Virus record (IMG/VR): IMGVR_UViG_3300010401_000640
Location: 1 to 64,000 of that record
From: a virus
DNA length: 64,000 nucleotides
Direction: 5' to 3' (one strand)
This document shows positions 3,222 through 55,314 of this stretch, piece after piece (within the stretch, counting starts at the first letter, position 1; every line of letters begins with the position of its first letter). Under the pieces are notes generated by a model. The model was given only the letters and a program-made list of their open reading frames with translations, was not told where the DNA came from and did no database searches. A program made the translations under genes and the position numbers.

Positions 3222-3755
3222 ATGCCTTTCGATAAGCTTGCTTGGCAGAAAGGGTATCAGCAGAGGAATCGCGAAAAAATCGCGGCTCGGATGCGTGTAT
3301 ATCATCTTCGAACGAAGGAGAAAAGGAACGTCGCCTCTCGGGAGTGGAAAATGGCCAACCCTGAACGGGTTAAGGAAACCCAGCGGGTATATCAGGTGAA
3401 AATTCGTGCTAAGAGAGCCGAGTATCGTCGGAACCGTCGTCGGGTGGTCCCCACAGAGCACCTGTTACAGAATCTCCGGTCTCGTCTCACATCGGCCCTG
3501 AAGAACAAAGGTAGGAAGTCGGCCCGGACCGTCGAATTGCTAGGGTGCCCCGTGTGTTGGCTAGAGGCCCACCTCGAATCGCTTTTCAAGCCCGGAATGA
3601 CCTGGGAAAATTACGGGTCGATGTGGCACGTTGACCACATCAAGCCGTGCGCGAGTTTCGATTTAACCCGTCCAGAGCATCAGCGTTGGTGTTTTCACTG
3701 GACAAATCTTCAACCGCTTTTCGCGGAAGAAAACCTTCGCAAAGGAGCGAATTAG
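3222..3755 (+). CDS. HNH homing endonuclease
   Basis: A 177-residue protein with a very basic N-terminal half rich in Arg/Lys/Gln and a C-terminal HNH module: LLGCPVCWL, FKPGMTWENYG, WHVDHIKPCASFDL, HWTNLQPLFAEEN. The HVDH pair and the later N-L-Q-P are the metal and DNA contacting core of this HNH subgroup. Close relatives occur at 14080, 54835 and 59896. Base composition is more AT-rich than the neighbours, which fits recent arrival. Codons 3741-3747 read aaaggag and lie nine bases before the ATG of the next gene at 3757, so the HNH tail carries that gene's SD. Confidence 0.87.
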   Translation: MPFDKLAWQKGYQQRNREKIAARMRVYHLRTKEKRNVASREWKMANPERVKETQRVYQVKIRAKRAEYRRNRRRVVPTEHLLQNLRSRLTSALKNKGRKSARTVELLGCPVCWLEAHLESLFKPGMTWENYGSMWHVDHIKPCASFDLTRPEHQRWCFHWTNLQPLFAEENLRKGAN

Positions 3756-42281: not shown

Positions 42282-42778
42282 GGCTCAGAGGTTACATCAG
42301 GTTGGGTCGGCGGGTCAACTGTTACGGGCGGCAGAACAGTGGGCTGGACCGCTTCGCCCGTCATGCCGGCGGCCTCCATTTGTTTCTGGCACTTGTAAAG
42401 AAAGTTGACGCCGTCGCACAACATCTGCGCGACTTCGGGCTGGCGGCAAGTGGCGAAAAATCCTGGGCGCGGTTCCTTTGTGGCGTCCGGCTCGAGGTTC
42501 ACGCAGATGACGAAGATTCCCGGCCGCGCTGGGTTGCTGACCCACTCGCAGATTAGGCCGGACACTGGAAAGGGGTAGAAGGGTTGCTGCGCGGCCTCCT
42601 TGTGCAGCTGCTCTTCGCTGACCTCGGTCTCCGTTTTCTTGTAGTCCGCGCCTTGCACCACGACCTTGTTGGAGGCGTGCTGGACGAACTGGTCCTTGAT
42701 GTTTTGGATGGCCTGCTCAGTGGGGAGCAATGGGCGGTAAGCCCGGCGCTTTGATTTTGGTTTGTTGCTTTTGCTCAT
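42278..42778 (-). CDS. Protein of unknown function
   Basis: A 166-residue protein with a Lys/Arg-rich N-terminus (MSKSNKPKSKRRAYRPLL), a beta-rich centre (GLICEWVSNPARPGIFVICV) and a Pro/Thr tail. Coupled to the first gene of the operon by ATGA. Confidence 0.55.
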   Translation of the reverse strand: MSKSNKPKSKRRAYRPLLPTEQAIQNIKDQFVQHASNKVVVQGADYKKTETEVSEEQLHKEAAQQPFYPFPVSGLICEWVSNPARPGIFVICVNLEPDATKEPRPGFFATCRQPEVAQMLCDGVNFLYKCQKQMEAAGMTGEAVQPTVLPPVTVDPPTQPDVTSEP

Positions 42779-43650
42779 AGGATTTGGGGGCGTTGGGAAA
42801 TTTGTTCGCGGAGTGCAGCTTCGAGGCGGCGGCGTGCTTCGGCTATTTGGTCAACGAGTCGGTCGCATGCATGGCCCGCGCCTGACGCTACCATCAGTGC
42901 GGTGGAGAGCTCCGCGAAGCTGCGATGGAAGGGCGAGTCGGCGGCTGGACATGGAGGCAGACGGACACCCTGGAAAACGCGGAGGTGTTTTGAAAGCCCC
43001 CGCAACCTTTTGTCATCCGGGAGTGCGGCCAAGTCAGCCTGAATGAGCCGCATGCACTCAACCCAGGTGCGGAGCTGCCAGTTGTCTTTCTCTTTCGCGA
43101 CGCGCTCGTATTCATCGAGGTCGAGCTCGGGCTTGTAGGCGTCACGGTGGCGGAAAAGCAGCGACTGGTGCTCGTTGATGAAGTCGAGCAGTTCGTGGGA
43201 CCACTGAGACTCATCGTGAAGGCGGACCATCGGACTCTGGCAGGCTAGGTCAGCCTCGTAAAGGAATTCGTCCTGGCTGGCGTGCGACCAAGGAATTTCG
43301 AGGAAAAACTTGCGCCGCAAGACGAGCTTCCAGAAGTCGCACTCGAGGGCACAGGCTTCGCGGCTTGCGAAGGCCGAGGCCAACGGAAAGCGGCGCGCAG
43401 TGTTGGGGTCCTCAGACAGCTTGACGCGTGTGGCCGTGTCGTTCGGGTCCTGTTCAGTCACGCCCCAGCAGTCCGCGTTGAACACCCCGACAGGGCGGCC
43501 GAAGTGCTCCGGGTCCTTGAAGATGGGCGAGGTCACCGAGAAACGGAAGTGCCACGGAGTCTTCCGGGATATGTGGCTGTAAACGTGGCGGAACTTTTTA
43601 TGCACGCACAGAAGATATGTGAGGAAGTGGGCCCGCGTCAACTTAAACAC
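42775..43650 (-). CDS. First gene of the leftward operon, unknown
   Basis: A 291-residue, mostly helical protein with many Arg, Glu and aromatic residues (QWSHELLDFINEHQSLLFRH, NWQLRTWVECMRLIQADL). It is the gene nearest the leftward promoter region, so it is probably expressed first. The start is uncertain: a GTG at 43650, or a later GTG beginning MHKKFRHVYS, is possible; neither has a good SD. No motif recognised. Confidence 0.55.
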   Translation of the reverse strand: MFKLTRAHFLTYLLCVHKKFRHVYSHISRKTPWHFRFSVTSPIFKDPEHFGRPVGVFNADCWGVTEQDPNDTATRVKLSEDPNTARRFPLASAFASREACALECDFWKLVLRRKFFLEIPWSHASQDEFLYEADLACQSPMVRLHDESQWSHELLDFINEHQSLLFRHRDAYKPELDLDEYERVAKEKDNWQLRTWVECMRLIQADLAALPDDKRLRGLSKHLRVFQGVRLPPCPAADSPFHRSFAELSTALMVASGAGHACDRLVDQIAEARRRLEAALREQISQRPQIL

Positions 43651-43687: not shown

Positions 43688-43791
43688 ACCTAGGTTCTCC
43701 CTGACAAAAGTCCTCCTCCTCCTACATACTTACTTTATACGCGAGTATATAATGTGTGTGTATGAAGGGTTTTGTCAGGGAGAACCTAGGT
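43688..43791. promoter_or_regulatory. Divergent control region with perfect 22-bp inverted repeat
   Basis: Arms 43688-43709 and 43770-43791 are exact reverse complements (left arm acctaggttctccc followed by tgacaaaa). They enclose 60 AT-richer bases containing TATAAT at 43748-43753 and a minus-strand TATAAA at 43739-43734. Each arm contains CTGACA, which could act as a -35 box with CATACT (43725-43730, plus) and CATTAT (43754-43749, minus) 18 bases away. The leftward operon starts at 43650 and the rightward genes at 43867. An operator pair or an origin is also possible. Confidence 0.7.
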
Positions 43792-43866
43792 GTTGGGGGC
43801 CCTTTTTCAGACAGGCCATCAAACTCCGAACCTTGACTTTCGCCTGCGGCGGGCACTTTTCCCAAC

Positions 43867-44070
43867 ATGGCAGAAACCACCCCACCCAAAGACAGCCCCG
43901 GTGACCACGAGGCCAACCTGTTCATCGGCTCCACAAGCAAGGCGCAAGAGCTCTATGCTGAATCAAAGCGGGTTCGGAGATTGGCCGAGCGAAAAGCATG
44001 GTGGAACAACCGGCAAAAGGAGCCTTCCGCAACCGGGCGAGAACGGCCAATTGGAAACCTAGAAGAATAG
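43867..44070 (+). CDS. Small hydrophilic protein, unknown
   Basis: A 67-residue protein, MAETTPPKDSPGDHEANL at the start, with a helical basic middle (KAQELYAESKRVRRLAERKA). First gene rightward of the control region. No strong SD. Unknown function; a small regulator or packaging-linked protein cannot be excluded. Confidence 0.55.
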   Translation: MAETTPPKDSPGDHEANLFIGSTSKAQELYAESKRVRRLAERKAWWNNRQKEPSATGRERPIGNLEE

Positions 44071-44110
44071 CGGGTTGACGTTCGCCTATTTGCCTACACT
44101 TCTTGGTCCG

Positions 44111-44620
44111 ATGACTGACGAACAGCTGAGAAAGCAGCGGGAGCGCGGCCGCCGGCATTACGCCAACATGACAGAGGAACAACGGCAGCGGAAGCGAGAG
44201 AGGGGCAGGAAGTATGCCCTGACGATGACAGAAGAGCAGAGGGCCAGAAGGAAAGAAAGTCTGCGACAATGGGAAGCAAAGAATCCTGAGCGAAAGAAGT
44301 CCTACTACCAGAGATACTACCAAGCGAACAAGGAGAAGATAAGCCTGCGCCGAAAACAGAACACTCGCAGGTCTGAAGTCCTGCGCAGATACGACCTGAC
44401 CGCCGGCTCCTATGATTTGCTTCTAGCAAGCCAGGGCAACAAGTGCGCGGTTTGTCAGGAGGATTTTAGCCGCACTCCTCACGTTGACCACGACCACGAC
44501 ACCGATGTAGTCCGTGGCCTGTTGTGCTCCCAGTGCAACACAGCGCTCGGGCTTTTGAAGGACAGCGCTCGCATCGCATTCCTCGCAGCCTCCTATCTTC
44601 AATCTCATGGCAAAGCCTAA
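44111..44620 (+). CDS. Endonuclease VII-like homing endonuclease
   Basis: A 169-residue protein with three Arg-rich repeats of the type MTEEQRxRxRERGRxYA at the N-terminus, a basic linker, then YDLTAGSYDLL, CAVCQEDF and HVDHDHDTDVVRGLLCSQCN, the endonuclease VII-like HNH core. It overlaps the small terminase start by 14 bases. The repeats match the modular DNA-contact helices of these enzymes. Confidence 0.9.
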   Translation: MTDEQLRKQRERGRRHYANMTEEQRQRKRERGRKYALTMTEEQRARRKESLRQWEAKNPERKKSYYQRYYQANKEKISLRRKQNTRRSEVLRRYDLTAGSYDLLLASQGNKCAVCQEDFSRTPHVDHDHDTDVVRGLLCSQCNTALGLLKDSARIAFLAASYLQSHGKA

Positions 44621-45272
44621 CACTCTCGACAAAAACAAAGCGGACGTGGCTCAGATTTTTTTGGTCTGGATGGCGACGGTGGGCAGCAACGAGCAAACAG
44701 CACTCGCGCTGGACCTCGAACCTGAACAGGTCCGGCGGCTCGCAGAGTCGGAGGGCTGGAATGAAAAAATTCGCCGCGTGTCGCTGATGTCCAAGAATGG
44801 AAAGCCGGGCGATTACGAAAGAATGGTCAACCGGTGCCTCAACTTTGTTCAGGCCCAGGTGCTGAGGACTCAGGTCAACAGATTGCTGACCGAGGTCACC
44901 GCGATGTCTAACGAAGAGTTGCTGAGCCGGGCCTGCGTGCGGACGCGCGATGGCGGAATGCAGCTGAGCGCCAAGTTTTTTGTGGACCTCGCAAACGCAG
45001 CCGAGGCGACGCAGCGCATGTCTTACGCGGCGCTGTCTGACACCGCTGGCGAACGCGCGGACCGCGACAGCGGAAGCCCGACCGGCCAGGGCGCAAACGA
45101 CCTTCACGCCGCCATCATCGCAGCCCTTTCCAACCCCGGTCTGAATCCCGAAGCGGTTTCCCAAAAGCTTCTGGCTGAAGCAAATGAGGAAGTGCAGGCA
45201 AGAGCATCCGCAAAAGCACTTGTCGAACCATTCGTGTCTCCCGCAAGTCCGGCAGAATCTGCCGACCAGTGA
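44607..45272 (+). CDS. Putative terminase small subunit
   Basis: A 221-residue protein. The N-terminal 60 residues contain a helix-turn-helix (AQIFLVWMATVGSNEQTALA, LDLEPEQVRRLAESEGWNEK) as in small terminases; the middle is helical and may oligomerise (MVNRCLNFVQAQVLRTQVNR); the C-terminal 80 residues are Ala/Pro/Ser-rich. It would bind the packaging start site and recruit the large subunit, whose gene lies 6.5 kb further on (51742). The assignment is by HTH and position, not by a close match. Confidence 0.6.
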   Translation: MAKPNTLDKNKADVAQIFLVWMATVGSNEQTALALDLEPEQVRRLAESEGWNEKIRRVSLMSKNGKPGDYERMVNRCLNFVQAQVLRTQVNRLLTEVTAMSNEELLSRACVRTRDGGMQLSAKFFVDLANAAEATQRMSYAALSDTAGERADRDSGSPTGQGANDLHAAIIAALSNPGLNPEAVSQKLLAEANEEVQARASAKALVEPFVSPASPAESADQ

Positions 45273-45663: not shown

Positions 45664-45912
45664 ATGAAACCCGCCAGCGAAAAAACCATCCGGCAGCTGT
45701 GGGACCACGTCCTTTCCCTCCCCGCCGCCGACAAGCTGCGCGCCCTCGCGCCCGCTGACCGGGAACCCTACTGGCGCTGCTTCCTTGCGGGATTCATGGT
45801 CGCGCGGTGGGCGGTCCAAGACAGCCAACGACTTTTCCGGGACCAAGTCGCCGACGAGCTCACCGAAAAAATCAACGCGCAGATGGAAGTCGAGCGCCTA
45901 CTTGACAGCTAG
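45664..45912 (+). CDS. Small helical protein, unknown
   Basis: An 82-residue protein, MKPASEKTIRQLWDHVLS at the start, helical with Trp/Arg clusters (REPYWRCFLAGFMVARWA). First gene after a putative promoter. No family recognised. Confidence 0.58.
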   Translation: MKPASEKTIRQLWDHVLSLPAADKLRALAPADREPYWRCFLAGFMVARWAVQDSQRLFRDQVADELTEKINAQMEVERLLDS

Positions 45913-45939
45913 CCAAACGTGTGGCATGTTTCCGCGCCT

Positions 45940-46125
45940 ATGAAAGAAAAGCCAAGCTACACCGTGGAGTGCTACTTCGACCACTTCTGGGGCAAGAGTG
46001 TGAATTGCCGGGGCCCCCACAGCACCCTGAAATCCGCGAGGCTGGCCGTTAAACGGAGAGGCTCGGTGTCTCGCCGCTATCGAATCGTGAAGCACGCCGT
46101 CACCGCCATCATCATCAAACCATGA
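45940..46125 (+). CDS. Small basic protein, unknown
   Basis: A 61-residue protein from ATG 45940 (an upstream in-frame GTG at 45919 is less likely). Contains YTVECYFDHFWGKSVNCRG and a basic C-terminus (RRYRIVKHAVTAIIIKP). Pattern suggests an alpha/beta fold of strand-helix-strand. ATGA overlap with the next gene. Confidence 0.55.
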   Translation: MKEKPSYTVECYFDHFWGKSVNCRGPHSTLKSARLAVKRRGSVSRRYRIVKHAVTAIIIKP

Positions 46126-46376
46126 AAACCGAACTGACCCACACCAAACAAAAACCCATGTCGTTTCCTCTGCTCGCGCAGTCGATACACCGTGACGACC
46201 CCACACTCTCCTTCACCGTGCTATTCGTAAGCCCCCAATCGGGCACGGTGGTTCACTGTGAATCGGACGCGGCTCGTCACATCGGCGAGACCGACGACCA
46301 TTGGTGCCCCGTCCACAACCATGAGCAGTGGCGCATACTCTCGCCCGGGGAGGCGGTCACCCTCCGAAACGGCTGA
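46122..46376 (+). CDS. Small protein, unknown
   Basis: An 84-residue protein with LSFTVLFVSPQSGTVVHC and several His and Cys residues (TDDHWCPVHNHEQW) that could bind metal. Coupled to its upstream neighbour. No family recognised. Confidence 0.55.
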   Translation: MKTELTHTKQKPMSFPLLAQSIHRDDPTLSFTVLFVSPQSGTVVHCESDAARHIGETDDHWCPVHNHEQWRILSPGEAVTLRNG

Positions 46377-46379
46377 GCC

Positions 46380-46601
46380 ATGATTACCAAAGCCCAAACC
46401 GAAGCCGACTTCCGCGCGGAGCTCACCGCCCTGCTGAAGCGCTACGACGCGGAGATTTCAGCGGCCGACCACTACCCCGGATGGCCGGAGTGCGGGGAAG
46501 ACATCCGCATGACGGTGACCATTCCGGGTCGATATGACGCGGACGGCCGCACGCTCGTTGAATACACTGAGTTCGACCTCGGCCGGCATCTGACATCATG
46601 A
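46380..46601 (+). CDS. Small acidic protein, unknown
   Basis: A 73-residue protein, MITKAQTEADFRAELTAL at the start, with helix then beta hairpin (DIRMTVTIPGRYDADG). No motif recognised. Its stop overlaps the next ATG. Confidence 0.55.
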   Translation: MITKAQTEADFRAELTALLKRYDAEISAADHYPGWPECGEDIRMTVTIPGRYDADGRTLVEYTEFDLGRHLTS

Positions 46602-46768
46602 TTACCGTTCTCCCCAAAGGCACCTGGGCCCCGACGCCCAAGCGACCCGCGCCGCCCAGCCGGCCGCCGGCCGCTGACAAATCACGCGAGGAACGCCAGC
46701 GCGACCTGCGGGGACTCCTTTTCCTATTTTTCCTCTGGCTCGTTTTCCACGGCCGTCACCACTACTAA
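46598..46768 (+). CDS. Small single-span membrane protein
   Basis: A 56-residue protein with a Pro/Arg-rich cytoplasmic part (WAPTPKRPAPPSRPPAADKS), a hydrophobic C-terminal helix (GLLFLFFLWLVF) and a His-rich end (HGRHHY). Tail-anchored layout. ATG overlaps the upstream stop. Function unknown. Confidence 0.55.
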   Translation: MITVLPKGTWAPTPKRPAPPSRPPAADKSREERQRDLRGLLFLFFLWLVFHGRHHY

Positions 46769-46772
46769 ACCT

Positions 46773-47480
46773 ATGACCAACTTCATGAAGGTCTTCGCCT
46801 ACCTCCGGGTCAGCACCCGGGAACAAATCGACGGCGGCGGCTTCGACCGCCAGCTGGCGACAATCCTCAGCTTCACGGAGCACCGCGGCTGGGACGTCGC
46901 CCGGACATTCCGCGACCAGCAGTCCGGCGGAACCGAGTTCGACAATCGAGGTGGCCTGCGCGAACTCCTTTCCCTGGCCGGCCGCGACAGCGCGCTCGGG
47001 GTGGACACAATCATCGTCGAAAACGCGACGCGCATCGCGCGCGACTTGATGGTCCAAGAAATTTTCCTGGCCGAGTGCCGCAAGCTGGGCGTCAAAGTTT
47101 TCGCGGCCGATTGCGGCGAAGAGCTCGTGCTGGCCAACGCGGACCCGACGCGCGTTCTGATTCGCCAAATTCTCGGCGCGCTGGCTCAGTGGGAGAAGGC
47201 CCAAATCGTCCTGAAGCTCCAAGCCGGCCGCCGCAAGAAGGCCCGCGAAACTGGCGCTCCATGCGGGGGCCCCAAGCCATACGGTCAAACGGAATCCGAG
47301 CGCGCGGTGATTGGCGACATCTGGCGATTCCGGCGGACCAACGGCTGGACCTTTCGCCGAATCGCCCAGGAACTCCGCGCCATCGGATACCCCGCGCCGG
47401 GCGGCCGCTGCTGGCACACCGGAACGGTCGGGACACTCTACTGTCGTGAAGTGGCGCGACGCGGGGCAGACAATATATGA
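46773..47480 (+). CDS. Compact serine recombinase
   Basis: A 235-residue protein with the resolvase catalytic domain: YLRVSTREQ (nucleophile S14), later TIIVENATRIARDLM and a long helix with LGALAQWEKAQIVLKLQAGR. The C-terminus (GGPKPYGQTESERAVIGDIW, FRRIAQELRAIGYP, W..GTVGTLYCRE) looks like a reduced form of the 'Recombinase' domain of large serine integrases rather than the small HTH of resolvases. It could act in integration, inversion or dimer resolution. No attachment sites were recognised. Confidence 0.86.
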   Translation: MTNFMKVFAYLRVSTREQIDGGGFDRQLATILSFTEHRGWDVARTFRDQQSGGTEFDNRGGLRELLSLAGRDSALGVDTIIVENATRIARDLMVQEIFLAECRKLGVKVFAADCGEELVLANADPTRVLIRQILGALAQWEKAQIVLKLQAGRRKKARETGAPCGGPKPYGQTESERAVIGDIWRFRRTNGWTFRRIAQELRAIGYPAPGGRCWHTGTVGTLYCREVARRGADNI

Positions 47481-47674
47481 ACGTCCGACAACTCATCTCA
47501 ATCCTCGAGGAGCTCGATGCCAAGGGCCACGGCGACCTCCCGGTCCTGGTCGAAGATGGCCTCGACCCGAGCGACCCCATCGAATGCACCTGCGCCTCGG
47601 AGTCCGATGGCGGCTTGTTCTACCTCGACGAGCACGACAACGTCCAATATGGTCCGCACATCCGGCTATCATGA
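47477..47674 (+). CDS. Small acidic protein, unknown
   Basis: A 65-residue protein beginning MNVRQLISILEELDAKGH, followed by DLPVLVEDG and a Cys pair (IECTCASES). The pattern (NVRQLIxxLxxLD....D.PV.V) resembles a small phage protein family of unknown function. Coupled on both sides by ATGA. Confidence 0.58.
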   Translation: MNVRQLISILEELDAKGHGDLPVLVEDGLDPSDPIECTCASESDGGLFYLDEHDNVQYGPHIRLS

Positions 47675-48054
47675 AAAACCTCCGCAAAGGCGACGAGCCA
47701 CTTTTCCGGTTCGTCAATGCAATGATGATTAAGGCGGCGACTCAATTCCGTCTCCCCCTGCGGAGGGTCCTCCCGCTCGAAAAAGAAAACTGCTCTCGCT
47801 ATTTCGGCCGATGCGAGAAAGACGGAACAATCTATGTCCGGGTCCGGGACGCCTCGAAAGGCGGCCGGCGGTGGAAAGGAATAGACGAGCCCTACCAAAT
47901 CATCGACACCATGTCCCACGAACTGGCGCACCTCATTACGCTGGACCACACCCCGAAGTGGTTTGACCTCCACCTCATGATTCTCGGGGACCTCGCCGGC
48001 CGGCGGGTCTTCGAAGTCCTCTCCAACTTCCATGAGCAACGCCGACGTCACTAG
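47671..48054 (+). CDS. SprT/YgjP-like zinc metallopeptidase-type protein
   Basis: A 127-residue protein with TMSHELAHLITLDHTPKWF near residue 80-97: HExxH plus a third His, the zinc motif of SprT and YgjP-like proteases, which resemble eukaryotic SPRTN that removes DNA-protein crosslinks. The N-terminal part is basic (LRRVLPLEKENCSRYFGR). A role in DNA-bound protein removal or virion processing is possible. Coupled to the upstream gene by ATGA; overlaps the next by 23 bases. Confidence 0.72.
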   Translation: MKNLRKGDEPLFRFVNAMMIKAATQFRLPLRRVLPLEKENCSRYFGRCEKDGTIYVRVRDASKGGRRWKGIDEPYQIIDTMSHELAHLITLDHTPKWFDLHLMILGDLAGRRVFEVLSNFHEQRRRH

Positions 48055-48265
48055 AATAATCGAGGCCGAGAAAGCAAAGGTGGGCGGGAGACCGACAATC
48101 CTTTTCTGCTCCGACTTCTCGGCGGTGCCGGGCTTTCCCGGCTGCTGCACGTCTTGTCACGACGACTGGAATGACGGCTACGACTCGCCTGTTGAGACGG
48201 AATACAAAGGCGTCCTGCTCTCGACTTGCTGCAAGGTCTCCGCTTGGCTCGACAAAAATATATGA
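48032..48265 (+). CDS. Small Cys-rich protein
   Basis: A 77-residue protein with a run FPGCCTSCHDDW and a second STCCKVSAW, giving five Cys and one His that could bind zinc. Starts MSNADVTRIIEAEKAKVG. Overlaps both neighbours. Function unknown. Confidence 0.55.
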   Translation: MSNADVTRIIEAEKAKVGGRPTILFCSDFSAVPGFPGCCTSCHDDWNDGYDSPVETEYKGVLLSTCCKVSAWLDKNI

Positions 48266-48486
48266 GCGACACCTCCAAAAAAATCACGCGCGAGTTCGAC
48301 CGGCTCTGCCGGACCAACGCGAAGTTCAAAGAATTCGTCAAGCTTTTCCCCGACGCCTCGATGGACGAGCTCCTTATGGGCTGGGGGTGGGTTCAGGACT
48401 TGACCGCCCAGGTAATTCAGCGCACAGTCCGGGACTTGACAGGCTCCCTTCCTCATGCGACATTGTGCCGGAAGAAAGAACGATGA
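48262..48486 (+). CDS. Small helical protein, possibly with altered C-terminus
   Basis: A 74-residue helical protein, MSDTSKKITREFDRLCRT at the start. Directly after its stop, in the same frame, lies an HNH remnant (48487-48576), so the last residues (HATLCRKKER) may come from a lost insertion. Function unknown. Confidence 0.5.
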   Translation: MSDTSKKITREFDRLCRTNAKFKEFVKLFPDASMDELLMGWGWVQDLTAQVIQRTVRDLTGSLPHATLCRKKER

Positions 48487-48576
48487 ACCAGAGAAATGGA
48501 AAAGTGCGAGCTGGTCTGCTCGAACTGTCACCGCATACGGACCAAAAAGAGAAGGAATCAAAAATGTTCTCATTAG
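48487..48576 (+). pseudogene. Relic of an HNH homing endonuclease C-terminus
   Basis: In the frame following the stop of the upstream gene the translation reads TREMEKCELVCSNCHRIRT then KKRRNQK. E-x-x-K-C-E-L-V-C-S-N-C-H-R-I-R-T is the C-terminal zinc and catalytic segment of HNH endonucleases, as in the gene at 1675. There is no start and no N-terminal part, so this is a remnant of a deleted homing gene. Its last bases (agagaagga) now serve as SD of the next gene. Confidence 0.68.
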
Positions 48577-48737
48577 CAACATTGCAGCGTCTTAACAACG
48601 CCATCGAAGCGCGCAAGGCCCGCCGTCGCGCCCGCGCGCTCAACGCGAAGAACAAGAAGCACCCGAAGAACGCGGAGAAAACTGGCCACGTCTGCAAGGG
48701 CCCCACCCCGCTCGGTTGCGATGAATGCCTCCACTGA
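48564..48737 (+). CDS. Small basic protein with C-terminal Cys pair
   Basis: A 57-residue protein, MFSLATLQRLNNAIEARK at the start, Arg/Lys-rich middle and HVCKGPTPLGCDECLH at the end. ATG 48564 was preferred over an upstream in-frame ATG at 48483 because agaagga lies eight bases before it and because the upstream part reads through the HNH relic. Function unknown. Confidence 0.55.
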   Translation: MFSLATLQRLNNAIEARKARRRARALNAKNKKHPKNAEKTGHVCKGPTPLGCDECLH

Positions 48738-48748
48738 CCGACCACCCC

Positions 48749-49000
48749 ATGAAAACCCAAAGCAAACTTATCCTCGCGCCCAACGGCACGCTCCTCAACG
48801 CTGACCACATCGTAGCGGTGTCCCCGATTTTCGAATCGCCCGACATGGGTTGCGACGCGTTCGCGGTCTATACCGTCTCCGACGGCGCGGAGCCTTTCCT
48901 TTTCATCGCGCGTTCCTCGGCCCCCAAGAAAGACCACCACAAGGAGTTTGTGTTGGCCTGGACCGCGGCCACGAGCCCGTGTGATTTTTCGGGTTCCTGA
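48749..49000 (+). CDS. Small beta-rich protein, unknown
   Basis: An 83-residue protein, MKTQSKLILAPNGTLLNA at the start, with an all-beta pattern (DHIVAVSPIFESPDMG, CDAFAVYTVSDGAEPFLFIA). Last protein gene before the tRNA. No family recognised. Confidence 0.55.
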   Translation: MKTQSKLILAPNGTLLNADHIVAVSPIFESPDMGCDAFAVYTVSDGAEPFLFIARSSAPKKDHHKEFVLAWTAATSPCDFSGS

Positions 49001-49001
49001 T

Positions 49002-49031
49002 TTGACACCAGACCACTTGTCGAGATATCTT
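49002..49031 (+). promoter_or_regulatory. Promoter for tRNA-Met
   Basis: TTGACA at 49002-49007, an 18-base spacer and TATCTT at 49026-49031, about 24 bases before the expected leader and 31 bases before the tRNA. Confidence 0.65.
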
Positions 49032-49061
49032 AGGGTGGTTCGAATGTTCTTTGAAAATTTT

Positions 49062-49136
49062 GGCGGGGTGAAGCAGTGGCAGCTAAGCAGCCTCATAAGC
49101 TGACGGTCAGAGGTTCGATTCCTTTCCCCGCTACCA
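49062..49136 (+). tRNA. tRNA-Met (CAT)
   Basis: A 75-base cloverleaf with encoded CCA. Acceptor ggcgggg pairs with ccccgct (one G-T at the end); D arm agc-agtggca-gct; anticodon arm gcagc-ctcataa-gctga with anticodon CAT; T arm agagg-ttcgatt-ccttt. Could be elongator Met, initiator Met or Ile2 (CAT); the first acceptor pair being G-T is unusual, and weak pairing at position 1-72 is a mark of initiator tRNAs. Confidence 0.92.
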
Positions 49137-49397
49137 ACTTACCTTGTCTCTCCAAAAAGGAGAACGCAGGGTATATCGTCGAGACGGGGTTTCGCGGGAG
49201 AACGACTCCCATCCGAAAGGACGCATGGCCCCGCACCAGCTCGACAAAAAACCGGGGCAATGGATGGCCCCTCTCATTTTCACCGAGACTCCGCTTGCCA
49301 GCGGATGTTGAAAGAGGCCTCCCCAGTGCTCGGTAACGGGAGCGCCCGGTTCGGGGGGCCGCGAAACTAGCCAAAGAAACGCTCCACCAAATTTTCG
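49137..49397 (+). other. Weakly coding stretch after the tRNA
   Basis: About 260 bases between tRNA-Met and the small frame at 49398. Two mini-frames (49225-49311, 28 codons; 49305-49370, 21 codons) overlap as ATGTTGA, and the first has aagga close to its ATG, but neither has recognisable sequence. The stretch is GC-rich with several short inverted repeats. It may be part of an RNA transcript started at the tRNA promoter. Confidence 0.4.
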
Positions 49398-49541
49398 ATG
49401 ACCGCCGCCAACTTGGCCGAAAAGGATTACTTCCACCACGGCAAGCGGGGTGTAAGGCGAAGCGAGCATCGACGGGAGATGGCCGAGCCGCGGCCCGCGA
49501 AACCTGCGACAGTGCGTCCAAACAACCCCGCTTATTTTTGA
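49398..49541 (+). CDS. Small protein, unknown
   Basis: A 47-residue frame (MTAANLAEKDYFHHGKRG at the start, then ...PAKPATVRPNNPAYF) with normal codon use and plausible composition. It ends two bases before a tRNA-like sequence. No SD is visible, so it may be translated weakly or not at all. Confidence 0.42.
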   Translation: MTAANLAEKDYFHHGKRGVRRSEHRREMAEPRPAKPATVRPNNPAYF

Positions 49542-49542
49542 T

Positions 49543-49617
49543 GGGCCTGTCGTCTAAGAAAGGACACCGCGATTGGTCGCGGAAATGGGGGGTTCTCGCT
49601 CCCTCCCGGGCTCGCCA
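49543..49617 (+). tRNA. tRNA-like element, degenerate, encoded CCA
   Basis: 75 bases: gggcctg pairs with cgggctc over all seven positions (two G-T), followed by G and an encoded CCA. A D-arm-like gtct-aagaaa-ggac, an anticodon-like ccgcg-attggt-cgcgg with a six-base loop instead of seven, and a T arm (gggggg...ccctcc) whose loop lacks the ttcga consensus. It resembles a decayed tRNA of the Glu/Gln type. Anticodon unresolved. Confidence 0.5.
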
Positions 49618-49907
49618 TCTTCTCACCGAGCCGGCCACCAACCCGGCGGAGTGATGGGTCTATCGAGACATGGATGCTCGGTTAGCCCGAAACGCAGACG
49701 GCTCCTGCGTAATGAGAGCCGGCGCTTTTGGACGTAAGGCAACCCGCGACGGCGGACGGGTAGGAGACATCCACTCGTGTCCACGAAGCAAAGCAACGGT
49801 GCTTCCGTTTGCCCCGGTAAGAATCCGGCGTGTGGGGTCCCGATAGTTACCCGCCATTTTCCCGGGTTGACATTCGTCCATCCCGCGGACTTCTTTCGGC
49901 AGCAATT
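49618..49907 (+). other. Weakly coding stretch with hairpins
   Basis: About 290 bases. A perfect hairpin cgcag-acggctc-ctgcg lies near 49694-49710, and a cgaagcaa...ttgcttcg-like pairing near 49783-49808. A 27-codon frame from 49653 and other short frames are not convincing. TTGACA at 49867-49872 could be a -35 box for the gene at 49908, but no good -10 follows at 16-18 bases. Confidence 0.4.
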
Positions 49908-50099
49908 ATGCCGAAGGAAATCACCGCACACGACCCCCGTTCTTTTGAGGACGAGGAAGACTACCGCAACGCAGAGATGGGCATGGGCGCGTCCTGCAAC
50001 AAATCCGGGCCCGACCCGTCCACCAAGCCTCCCGGCAAGTTCACCGAATCCTACGACGGGGCCGACGGCCCGGGGTTCGTGACCAACACCAAGGTCTAG
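49908..50099 (+). CDS. Small acidic protein, unknown
   Basis: A 63-residue, acidic, Gly/Pro-rich protein (MPKEITAHDPRSFEDEED at the start), likely disordered. ATG 49908 follows a ggcagcaatt stretch without strong SD. It precedes the sugar epimerase gene. Function unknown. Confidence 0.55.
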   Translation: MPKEITAHDPRSFEDEEDYRNAEMGMGASCNKSGPDPSTKPPGKFTESYDGADGPGFVTNTKV

Positions 50100-50110
50100 T
50101 CTTCCCGGTC

Positions 50111-51025
50111 ATGCGTGCGATTGTTGTTGTTGCCGGCGGCAGCGGTTTCGTTGGGCGCGCCTTCGTGGATTTCCTGACCAAGCGAGGCCACAAGGATGTC
50201 CGCGCCGTGAGTCGGGCGACTGGGTTCGACTTGCGAGACCCCGTGATGGCGAAACTCGCCTGTGAAGGAGCAGAGACGGTCTTCAACCTCGCCGCCCAGG
50301 TCGGCGGCATCGGCTACATCGGCAAGCACGACGTGGACTGCCTGCTCTCCTCGCTCATCAACACCAACCTCCTGCGCGCATGCGAGGAGCACAAGGTGAC
50401 CCGCTACTTTTTCGCCAGCTCGAGTTGCGTCTATCCCGACGGCGGCGTGATGGCCGAGAAAAACGCGCTGCCGGCCAACCCGGGGACCGGCTACGGCTGG
50501 GAGAAAATTTTCAGCGAACAAATGTGCCTCGCGTTCGACAAGGAAAAGCGGGTCCCCTGTTCCATCGCGCGCTTCCACACGCTCTACGGCCCGGGCGACG
50601 TCCGCCCCGGCGGCCGCGAGCACGTCATCGAGGCGCTGTGCAAAAAGGTCATTGCGGCCAAGCTCAGCGGCATCCACGAGATTTCCATCTGGGGCGACGG
50701 CACGCAGACCCGCAGCTTCCTCTACATCGACGACTGCGTCGAGGGCATCTACAAGCTTGCCTGCTCCGGCGTCACCGGCCCGGTGAACCTCAGTGGCGCG
50801 GAGTCCGCGACAGTCAACCAGCTCGTGGACATGCTCGAGGAAATCTCCGCCATCAAGCTCGAGCGTTTCTACAACAAGTCCGCGCCGTCTGGCAACACCC
50901 ACAAGACGACCGAAAACACGGCGCTTCGCGCCGCTCTTGCCTGGGAGCCCATGACACCCCTTCGCACCGGACTCGAGCGCACCTATCGCGACCTCTGGGA
51001 CCGGGCTGTAGTCCATGCAAGCTGA
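50111..51025 (+). CDS. NAD-dependent sugar epimerase, GDP-mannose 3,5-epimerase-like
   Basis: A 304-residue extended short-chain dehydrogenase. VAGGSGFVGRAF at 8-18 is the NAD-binding G-x-x-G-x-x-G; LAAQVGGIGYIG, SSCVYP, Y-G-W-E-K (Y-x3-K, about 128-132) and TRSFLYIDDCVEG complete the family pattern. VGGIGYIG and SSSCVYP are typical of GDP-mannose 3,5-epimerase and GDP-fucose synthase. It would produce a modified GDP- or UDP-sugar for the glycosyltransferases encoded nearby. Overlaps the next gene by 11 bases. Confidence 0.88.
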   Translation: MRAIVVVAGGSGFVGRAFVDFLTKRGHKDVRAVSRATGFDLRDPVMAKLACEGAETVFNLAAQVGGIGYIGKHDVDCLLSSLINTNLLRACEEHKVTRYFFASSSCVYPDGGVMAEKNALPANPGTGYGWEKIFSEQMCLAFDKEKRVPCSIARFHTLYGPGDVRPGGREHVIEALCKKVIAAKLSGIHEISIWGDGTQTRSFLYIDDCVEGIYKLACSGVTGPVNLSGAESATVNQLVDMLEEISAIKLERFYNKSAPSGNTHKTTENTALRAALAWEPMTPLRTGLERTYRDLWDRAVVHAS

Positions 51026-51740
51026 ATTGAATCCGCGCACGTTGGTTTCCTGCCACGGTTATTTTGGGGACAGCGCCCAAATCAAAAACATGCTCCGATA
51101 CCAGGAGCACCACCAGTGCCCGCTCATCATTGTCTCCCCGGTCGATTCGCGCATTGACCGCATGGGCCCGCACATCTGCCGGTTCGCCGGCCAGCGGCAA
51201 TACATCGGCCAGCTTTCTCTGGACCGCCAGTTCGCGCAGCTCCGGCTCCTGCTGGACTATCCGTTCGACTTTTTCCTGTCCAACGATTCCGACTCGCTCT
51301 GCATCTCCCCGAAGATTCCCGACTACCTCTACCACGAACCAGACGTCTTCTGGTCGAACGAAGTCAGTGACCTGATGCACGCGCGCCGCCCGGAATACCA
51401 ATGGCCGCGCCTCGCCTTTCAACCCCCCTACTTTTTTTCGCGCGCCGTCCTCGAGCGCATGGTCGCCACGCAGGGCACCTTTCCGACCGACATGCAAACG
51501 CCCTTCATCGACTGGCTGATGATGGCCATTTGTGTGGCGGGGAAAATCCCGCACAAGAATTTCCGCGACGGAATCAGCTGCCCGACCTCCGACTTCAACA
51601 GCCTCCGGCACATGTGCAACCACATCACGCAACGCGGAGCGGTCATGCTGCACTCCGTGAAGCGGCCGCAAGCCCTGCAAGAAATTGTTTCCGCCCGCCA
51701 CCAGTGGAACCGCGCGAATGGCAACGGAATTCGATTGTGA
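51015..51740 (+). CDS. GT-A glycosyltransferase-like protein
   Basis: A 241-residue protein. YPFDFFLSNDSDSLCISP near residue 84-100 offers a D-x-D metal/sugar nucleotide site after a hydrophobic strand, and PPYFFSRAVLERM with DMQTPFIDWLMM follow as in GT-A enzymes. It is coupled to the epimerase and ends one base before the large terminase, so sugar transfer genes sit directly in the packaging cluster. Acceptor unknown. Confidence 0.68.
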   Translation: MQAELNPRTLVSCHGYFGDSAQIKNMLRYQEHHQCPLIIVSPVDSRIDRMGPHICRFAGQRQYIGQLSLDRQFAQLRLLLDYPFDFFLSNDSDSLCISPKIPDYLYHEPDVFWSNEVSDLMHARRPEYQWPRLAFQPPYFFSRAVLERMVATQGTFPTDMQTPFIDWLMMAICVAGKIPHKNFRDGISCPTSDFNSLRHMCNHITQRGAVMLHSVKRPQALQEIVSARHQWNRANGNGIRL

Positions 51741-51741
51741 G

Positions 51742-53625
51742 ATGCCCATCCCCGCAGAGACAAAGCTTCTGATTGACAAGGTGGCCGACCTCCTCCACGC
51801 GGAGAAGGCCATCGACGCGGCGCTGCTGGTCATCAAGAACGCGGGCCGCACCGACAAGGTCAACAACAAGACCGAGGCCTTCGCGGTCCTGACGCCCCTG
51901 CTCCACTACTGTCTGAACAACGGCGGCATGGTCGAGGCCGCGCAATTGCTCTGGAGCCCCACGCTTTTCACACCCAAGCCCGAATCCACCCAGCGCGTGT
52001 GGCGGTCCTTCGACACCGACAACTACATCCTGCTGATGGGCGCGGCCTCAATGTCGAAATCCTACTCGATGGGCGTCCGCCTTATGCTCGAGTGGATTCG
52101 CGACCCGCAGTTCACCACGGTCCAAGTCATCGGCCCCTCGGAGAATCACCTTGAAGACAACCTTTTTTCCCATCTTGTCGAGCTCCACAAGAGTTCCACC
52201 ATACCGCTCCCCGGGCAGGTCGGAAAACTTTTCATCGGCATCGACCCCCGAAAACGTCGCGGCGCAATCCGGGGAGTTGTGGTTCCACTGGGGAAAAAAT
52301 CCGCAGGACGAATCCAAGGAACCAAGCGCTTCAACCGCACCAAGCCGCACCCAATCTTCGGAACGCTGAGCCGGATGTTCGTCTTCCTCGACGAAATGGT
52401 GAACATCCCAAAAGGGATTTGGAAGGACATCGACAACGTCCTGGCCAACGCGCAGGGCGACTCCGGCTTGAAAATAATCGGGGCCTTCAACCCCACCGAC
52501 CCGCAAGACGAGGTTGGCCGGCGGTGCGAGATGAAGGGCGGCTGGGGCCAGTTCGACCCCGACCGCGATTTCGACTGGAAATCAACGCGCGGGTGGCGGG
52601 TCGTGCGGCTCGACGCTAAATATTCGGAGAACGTCCAGCGCGGCGTGAAGGTTTTCGAGGGCCTCCAGACCAAAGAGGGCTTTGACCTCATCATCACGAA
52701 CTCCGGAGGCACGGAGTCGCCCGGTTACTGGACCATGGCCCGCGGGTGCTTCCCGCCCACGGGTGTCAGCATGGCCGTCATCCCCGGCGGCATGCTTAAC
52801 CGTTTCAAGGCGGAGTTCATTTGGCTGGAGACGCCCGAGGAATGCGCCGGCCTGGACATCTCCCTCCAAGGAAAAGACTGCGCTTACTTTGCGAAGGGAA
52901 AGTTTGGCGTCGCATCCGGAGTCAAGCTGCCACCGACGCTCGACGCTCCGAATGGCATCACCATCTTCTTCAAGAACCGGACAGGGAACAACACGCCGAG
53001 GTGGGCGCTCCAACTCGAGGCGCTCTTCAAAATGCCGAAGGGCGGCACCCAGGAAATGGCGGAGGCCGTGGTCAAACTGTGCAAGCAGCTTTTCGTGAAG
53101 CCCGCGTGGCTCTGCATGGACCGCACTGGAAACGGCCAGGGTGTGTATGACGTCATCAAATACATGTGGTCGCACGAGGTGCAGGGCATCAACTATTCCG
53201 AGAAGTGCAGCAACTGGAAAATCATGGCGGAGGACACGAAGACTCCGGACGAGCTCTACGACCGCGTGCAGACGGAGCTGTGGTTTCTGATGCGGCGGCT
53301 CATCGAGTTCGATTACGCAAAGGCGCTCCCGTCGATGGACCTGTCTGAGCTAATCCCACAGCTCTCGACGCGTTGGTTCCGGGCCACCGGGAAAATCTCT
53401 AAGGTGGAGACCAAGGAAGACTACAAGCTGCGGAACAGCGCGCTCTCGCCAGACGAGGCCGACGCGGTGTCACTACTTTTCTACGGCGCTCGCAACGCGG
53501 CCCAGGTCACGTTTGGCATGACGCCCGAAAATTCTTCTGCTGACGGCTACGACGAGGACGACCCGTCCGACAACTACCGCGTGGACATCACAAACCGATT
53601 CGAATCCCTCCCGGATGACCCTTAA
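51742..53625 (+). CDS. Terminase large subunit
   Basis: A 627-residue packaging motor. ATPase part: LMGAASMSKSYS near 100 (Walker A variant G-x4-S-K-S), MFVFLDEM near 214 (Walker B) and IIGAFNPTDPQDE (coupling motif). Nuclease part (RNase H fold): CAGLDISLQGKD near 372, LCMDRTGNG near 459 and LSPDEADAV near 571 supply the three acidic clusters. It translocates DNA into the prohead and cuts it. ATG 51742 is chosen; upstream in-frame codons overlap the glycosyltransferase. Confidence 0.9.
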   Translation: MPIPAETKLLIDKVADLLHAEKAIDAALLVIKNAGRTDKVNNKTEAFAVLTPLLHYCLNNGGMVEAAQLLWSPTLFTPKPESTQRVWRSFDTDNYILLMGAASMSKSYSMGVRLMLEWIRDPQFTTVQVIGPSENHLEDNLFSHLVELHKSSTIPLPGQVGKLFIGIDPRKRRGAIRGVVVPLGKKSAGRIQGTKRFNRTKPHPIFGTLSRMFVFLDEMVNIPKGIWKDIDNVLANAQGDSGLKIIGAFNPTDPQDEVGRRCEMKGGWGQFDPDRDFDWKSTRGWRVVRLDAKYSENVQRGVKVFEGLQTKEGFDLIITNSGGTESPGYWTMARGCFPPTGVSMAVIPGGMLNRFKAEFIWLETPEECAGLDISLQGKDCAYFAKGKFGVASGVKLPPTLDAPNGITIFFKNRTGNNTPRWALQLEALFKMPKGGTQEMAEAVVKLCKQLFVKPAWLCMDRTGNGQGVYDVIKYMWSHEVQGINYSEKCSNWKIMAEDTKTPDELYDRVQTELWFLMRRLIEFDYAKALPSMDLSELIPQLSTRWFRATGKISKVETKEDYKLRNSALSPDEADAVSLLFYGARNAAQVTFGMTPENSSADGYDEDDPSDNYRVDITNRFESLPDDP

Positions 53626-54584: not shown

Positions 54585-54820
54585 TGGTCTTTCCGAACCC
54601 ATTTCGCGCCGCGGCAGCGCTTTACAGGCAGGTCCGGGCCTATTTTCGTGGCGACCGCCTCATAGTTTCGGGGCGGGTGAGCGCCAAACGCCGGAAAATC
54701 TGCAACGCCTGCATCTGGCGGGACCCCGTGAGCAATCAATGTCTCAAGTGCTCTTGCTTTCTGGACCTCAAGGTCGAGCTGACCACTGAGAGTTGTCCAA
54801 TTGACAAGTGGCCCCAATAG
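54584..54820 (+). CDS. Small zinc protein (DUF6171-like)
   Basis: A 78-residue protein. The C-terminus ICNACIWRDPVSNQCLKC, then C-F-L-D-L-K and SCPIDKW, matches the conserved Cys pattern of a small phage family (DUF6171-like) found next to structural genes. ATG overlaps the upstream stop. Function unknown; the metal site is likely structural. Confidence 0.68.
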   Translation: MVFPNPFRAAAALYRQVRAYFRGDRLIVSGRVSAKRRKICNACIWRDPVSNQCLKCSCFLDLKVELTTESCPIDKWPQ

Positions 54821-54834
54821 GGACTTCTTTGACT

Positions 54835-55314
54835 GTGCCTAGAGACCCGATAAAAGAAGCCCTTCGCTTTCGAGAATATGCGCGCCTCCATCCAGAACGA
54901 CGGCGGGCTGCCTGTAGAAAGTGGAAACTGGCGAACCCCGACAAAATCCGGGAGTGGGATAAGACGGCGGCTGCTCGAATTGGTCGTCTCCGTAGATACC
55001 GTGAGAATCCCTCACACCGTGTTGCGGTCTCTCTTCGTAACCGGATTAACAAATTGGTTTCGCGCGGGAAGAAATCGGCGTCAACTCTGGAGCTTCTCGC
55101 GATGGGCTGGCAGGAGTTCACTATTTTTATCCGGGGCCAGTTTCGTCCCGGGATGTCCTGGGACAATCATGGCCTCGTGTGGCACCTAGACCACGTCCGG
55201 CCCTGTGCAAGTTTTGATTTAACAGACCCGGAGCAGCAGAGAATCTGTTTCCGGTGGGATAATTTTCAACCACTCTTTGCAAAAGAGAATTTACAGAAGG
55301 GCAGCAAGTGTTAG
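54835..55314 (+). CDS. HNH homing endonuclease, GTG start
   Basis: A protein of about 159 residues (GTG 54835 chosen; TTG 54829 and GTG 54808 are alternatives). Basic N-terminal half (LHPERRRAACRKWKLANPDK), then the HNH module GQFRPGMSWDNHG, WHLDHVRPCASFDL, RWDNFQPLFAKEN, as at 3222, 14080 and 59896. The tail codons acagaaggg (55293-55301) are the SD for the portal gene, whose GTG at 55308 lies inside this gene's last codons. Confidence 0.88.
   Translation: MPRDPIKEALRFREYARLHPERRRAACRKWKLANPDKIREWDKTAAARIGRLRRYRENPSHRVAVSLRNRINKLVSRGKKSASTLELLAMGWQEFTIFIRGQFRPGMSWDNHGLVWHLDHVRPCASFDLTDPEQQRICFRWDNFQPLFAKENLQKGSKC

Follow-up and report, generated by a model that had tools for sequence, protein, structure and literature searches.

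Uncultured soil phages of one group usually have, at the point where leftward and rightward transcription part, a palindrome with an AT-rich middle, the letters of which change from phage to phage while the two halves remain complementary. The element is probably an origin or another structure-dependent control site rather than a pair of mirror-image promoters. The sequence analyzed here, called the window, is a stretch of 64,000 nucleotides from an uncultured tailed phage represented by an IMG/VR record of 70.6 kb. Coordinates of the element and of the features around it are given in Table 1.

The inverted repeat and its genomic setting

The strand switch lies at the repeat, with leftward genes extending up to 43650 and rightward genes starting at 43867. 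The left block includes genes for a DNA polymerase, a helicase, an exonuclease-like protein and a RuvC-like protein, while the right block has a terminase-like gene and the virion genes. A first reading of the DNA, made from the sequence only, had described exact 22-bp arms 60 bases apart at this strand switch in a region richer in AT than its surroundings. The coordinates, the shuffles and the gene directions agree with this description, and the AT content is 58% in the spacer versus 39% in the window.

The exactness and length of the arms are far beyond chance. The size class of the repeat is unique within the window, where the next longest exact pair with an inter-arm gap of at most 200 bp is 12 bp, and the longest exact pair in dinucleotide shuffles of the window (n = 20) is 14 bp versus the real 22 bp. 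No further copies of the arm were found in the window with up to 3 mismatches allowed. The spacer ranks within the top 0.7% of the 60-bp segments of the window by AT content, and folding of the element as single-strand DNA gives z = -8.0. An Rfam search of the element returned only microRNA hairpin matches far below threshold, which is the outcome of a generic long hairpin. A protelomerase (telRL) site was considered and rejected, as the palindrome would have to run nearly perfectly through the centre, whereas here an asymmetric spacer of 57-60 bp separates the arms.

Table 1. Features of the strand-switch region, in window coordinates.
Feature	Position	Strand	Remarks
Left arm of palindrome, ACCTAGGTTCTCCCTGACAAAA	43688..43709	+	exact
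Right arm of palindrome	43770..43791	-	exact reverse complement of left arm ACCTAGGTTCTCCCTGACAAAA
AT-rich spacer, core CTACATACTTACTTTATACGCGAGTATATAATGTGTG	43710..43769	.	
Promoter-like CTGACA-18-CATACT inside element	43701..43730	+	consensus match only; 9/12
Promoter-like CTGACA-18-CATTAT inside element	43749..43778	-	consensus match; 9/12
Outward leftward promoter TTGACG-18-TATCTT	43612..43641	-	conserved in 7/7 close relatives
Outward rightward promoter-like TTGACT-18-TTTTCC	43833..43862	+	directly 5' of first right gene
First leftward gene	42775..43650	-	291 aa; no function assigned
First rightward gene	43867..44070	+	67 aa; conserved basic small-protein family at switch
Second conserved rightward gene	44607..45272	+	221 aa; synteny anchor for distant relatives

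The first leftward gene may have an alternative start at a GTG at 43605, downstream of the promoter. The AlphaFold model of its product has a mean pLDDT of 65.6 and is not usable. The second conserved rightward gene possibly encodes a putative small terminase subunit. Most records examined have at the switch a member of the 67-aa family encoded by the first rightward gene (homologues L021, L041, L031, L048 and others). The motif of this family, e.g. LNAQAKRERRQKQREQWKRQN, resembles the arginine-rich motif of lambda N. Pfam and PDB give no support for a lambda N-like protein, and statistical support is nil. Antitermination of the lambda N/nut type through this gene was considered and not adopted, the resemblance being one of motif.

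Several genes of the HNH/endonuclease VII type are present (1669-2220, 3222-3755, 44075-44620 and 54808-55314). The gene at 44075, which separates the first two conserved right genes, is missing from that position in relative G002. A small serine recombinase gene (46773-47480), about 3 kb from the element, is conserved across the lineage. Its product is near-identical in the nearest relative, G001, and 69% identical in G002.

Occurrence of the repeat in related phages

Related contigs were gathered by protein searches, and 17 records, the window included, were inspected at the switch. Six other records have the first leftward gene in common with the window; in more distant ones it is the first conserved rightward genes that are shared. 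A comparison with 50,697 phage records gave no DNA match to the switch region and no match to a conserved protein of 431 aa, and the terminase gave weak matches only. Scans of genome contigs found no relative either. No cultivated phage is close to this one. The records are metagenomic, the completeness of the genomes is uncertain, and the sample of relatives is small and not blindly chosen.

An inverted repeat is present in the same divergent gap in 13 of the 17 records, the window and 12 relatives; the link between repeat and switch was first seen in the initial relatives and then extended, so the count was not obtained blind. The repeat outscores every other segment of the stretch examined in 12 of the 13 carriers; the exception, G002, has only an 11-bp pair at the switch. 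The 60-bp centre is in the top 1% for AT content in 11 of the 13. Arm length varies across the carriers from 11 to about 72 bp, with arms of about 72 bp in G032, 71 bp (perfect) in G014, about 43 bp in G013 and 24+18 bp in G004 (e.g. ACTGACACTCTTTGTTTTTCGTCA). G002, whose repeat at the switch is the weakest, carries a separate 40-bp near-palindrome (L018 10908-10947) near 66.9 kb of its contig.

The repeat is lacking at the switch in G019, G020, G025 and G041, although the switch of G041 could not be placed with confidence; G019 and G020 have the same switch sequence. No repeat of comparable strength was found elsewhere in the records G019, G025 and G041. An eighteenth record, L191, has no repeat in the piece examined. 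Its absence from four relatives shows that the lineage does not depend on the repeat. Two exact matches to the arm, L003 and L004, were discarded as chance matches with no repeat present.

Promoters inside and outside the element

The two promoter-like CTGACA sites within the element had been proposed as mirror-image promoters. As sequence matches they hold: both agree with the consensus at 9 of 12 positions, and promoter-like sites exceed expectation in the 700-bp region (3 found, 0.2 expected). As the conserved feature of the element they do not. A mirrored pair is found by the same rule only in the window and in G014, where the sites are inside the long arms and have poor -10 boxes. Nine relatives have no mirror promoters and G001 retains one, the site at 43749..43778 (-), which points the other way there; the site at 43701 (+) has a spacer of 15 in G001. 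Each of the two sites is lacking in most relatives.

What is conserved instead is a set of promoters that face outward from outside the arms. On the left, the consensus TTGAC[AG]-N17/18-(C)ATATnTT is found outside the left arm in 7/7 close relatives, and a TTGAC site pointing right precedes the first right gene in the 7 close relatives. On this consensus evidence the main starts of leftward and rightward transcription would lie outside the element. With the outward promoters outside the arms, the main transcripts need not carry an arm as leader on either side, and the earlier proposal that both RNAs share the same leader is not upheld. Promoter-like TTGACA-N17/18 sites also lie a few bases before the start codons of many genes (e.g. 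45628, 45902, 39104 and 33637), which suggests leaderless or very short-leader mRNAs.

Arm turnover and spacer inversion

Comparison of the arms of different records reveals almost no common sequence, while complementarity is kept. Conservation of the arms in relatives, which had been named as a check on the sequence-only reading, is thus seen in structure and not in sequence, and the surrounding genes are conserved. The idea of a symmetric switch or shared operator fares accordingly: the symmetric element at the left/right switch stands and recurs among the relatives, but the arm sequence is replaced between them.

The replacement can be followed most closely in G001, which has a perfect 26-bp pair of arms and whose neighbouring protein is 94% identical to that of the window. 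The window and G001 differ at 10 of 22 arm positions, and all 10 changes are compensated on the opposite arm. They fall in the 11 outermost positions compared, of which 10 differ, and the 11 bp next to the spacer, CCCTGACAAAA, are the same in both phages. The spacers also differ in orientation relative to the flanking genes. The G001/L005 spacer aligns to that of the window with a score of 98 when inverted and 37 when direct, whereas the G002/L006 spacer scores 50 directly and 26 inverted, which is the window orientation. Because the more distant G002 matches the window directly, the flip would most simply be assigned to the G001 side. The evidence for flipping is one inversion event, observed by comparing two related species rather than inside a single population. 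Elsewhere in the two phages, a block at 45664-53625 is 99.1% identical to G001, compared to 85-93% for the switch region, which suggests that this block is a recent exchange between phages.

Arms whose sequence turns over while complementarity stays do not form a conserved site for binding or recombination. If pairing is kept but the sequence is not, then what is maintained is the structure, the identity of both arms, or both. Selection appears to keep a structure at this site, namely complementary arms and an easily melted centre, rather than its letters. Template switching in replication homogenises arms and inverts spacers (PMC8604942, PMC8794818), and it fits the changes in arms and spacer between the window and G001 with no recombinase needed. 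Only the position, the complementarity and the AT-rich centre are kept from one relative to the next, and for this reason sequence searches miss the element.

Discussion

We read the element as a palindrome that would form a hairpin or cruciform, with an AT-rich centre, between the outward promoters of two divergent gene blocks. That it is the replication origin of the phage, or part of it, is the likeliest reading, although one that we put forward tentatively. Negative supercoiling in the DNA between the divergent promoters would help the AT-rich centre to melt, and the arms, extruded or folded as single strands, would load the replication machinery. Replication through the palindrome would then repair mismatches between the arms and sometimes flip the spacer by template switching of the polymerase. 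The GC skew flips sign at the switch; because all genes diverge at the same point, this cannot separate replication from transcription. DnaA boxes gave single or scattered matches without a cluster, and no initiator protein and no conserved iterons were found. Counting against an origin are the absence of the repeat at some switches and the pair of just 11 bp in G002. The palindrome cannot be the only route to starting replication, because G019, G020 and G025 lack it and G019, G025 and G041 have no comparable repeat.

The AT-rich centre, the hairpin arms, the non-coding divergent position and the turnover together make the origin region of the c2 type the closest match among known systems. In Ceduovirus phages the region between the divergent genes occurs as three unrelated sequence types, all of which support plasmid replication (PMC7150918). 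The record of phage c2 has a putative origin annotated in a 611-bp region between divergent early and late genes, and in our scan this region holds the highest-scoring inverted repeat of c2 (32 versus 28 elsewhere). The c2/Ceduovirus origin and the element described here are both non-coding, lie between divergent blocks next to promoters, and are a highly variable part of otherwise conserved genomes (PMC7150918); the non-coding divergence point flanked by promoters and the strong variation among conserved genomes are both found in the phages studied here. The c2 phages differ in being small (about 22 kb) and unrelated to these phages. Their repeat is weak compared to the arms of 22-72 bp in the present phages, and a non-coding early transcript probably plays a part at their origin. 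Cluster O mycobacteriophages (Corndog) also have an AT-rich stretch between divergent operons with sequence repeats beside it, which its authors regard as a possible origin (PMC4351075). That stretch is nearly invariant across Cluster O, however, and its description includes no long perfect palindrome whose arms change.

The palindrome, its position, the compensated arm turnover, the spacer inversion between two relatives and the outward promoter-like sites outside it are all observed, and all of them are compatible with a purely regulatory structure. Such a site, with no origin function, could form a cruciform that absorbs negative supercoiling, or could insulate or couple the divergent promoters, and so set the balance between left and right transcription. 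The palindrome does lie between conserved outward promoters, its structure is maintained despite sequence change, and it is missing in some relatives that still have the switch promoters, as might be expected for a tuning element. Regulation alone would not call for an AT-rich centre of 45-95 bp, and the arm lengths, from 11 to about 72 bp, follow no obvious pattern; we consider this explanation rather unlikely. It is improbable that the arms hold a shared operator for mirror-image promoters that would start both RNAs with the same leader. The match of both CTGACA sites to the consensus, more than expected, speaks for them, as does the inner 11 bp with CTGACA, which is identical in both arms of the window and G001 while the outer arm was replaced. 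Nine relatives lack the pair, one of its sites has a 15-bp spacer in G001, the conserved promoters are those facing outward from outside the arms, and a shared operator would be expected to conserve its sequence. Arm turnover and the promoter survey together led us to reject a conserved operator/promoter pair in the arms.

Invertible promoters of phase variation resemble the element in two respects: promoter-like sequence lies between inverted repeats, and one relative has its spacer inverted. A site-specific recombinase, such as the serine recombinase encoded at 46773-47480, would flip the spacer and swap left and right promoter activity. The inverted spacer of G001 relative to the window and G002 agrees with this, and so does the conserved recombinase gene nearby. 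The window and G001 have near-identical recombinases but different outer arms, which excludes the whole arm as the specific site of the enzyme; unlike phase-variation switches, the arms keep no recombinase site and do not follow recombinase presence. The gene is present also in G019, G025 and G041, which lack the repeat, and a spacer of merely 57-60 bp also argues against a switch. Since the recombinase does not keep to the records that have the repeat, the serine-recombinase switch was rejected, and an invertible switch of any such kind is very unlikely. Equally slight is the probability of a functionless by-product of mutation, in which a chance palindrome in a non-coding gap was lengthened and homogenised by template switching. 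This process creates and perfects inverted repeats (PMC8794818), and the arms hold no conserved sequence. Known template-switch quasipalindromes share with the element arms that become identical and spacers that are inverted (PMC8604942, PMC8794818), but they are scattered short repeats, whereas here a repeat is retained at one place across a phage lineage. Neutral palindromes would be expected in other gaps too; in 13/17 records a repeat is found at the homologous site, and in 12 of these no other repeat of the stretch is stronger.

The reading as an origin or other structure-dependent control site can be carried further. In a large lineage of uncultured phages, the element would then serve as the origin or as a master control site, recognised by the shape of its DNA alone, with a replaceable sequence that is kept complementary and occasionally flipped by the very replication that it serves. 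We advance this fuller version as doubtful. Structure combined with synteny offers a route to candidate origins or switches in uncultured phages. An origin function, if real, would make this a phage origin defined by structure, with arm turnover and spacer flipping that can be observed.
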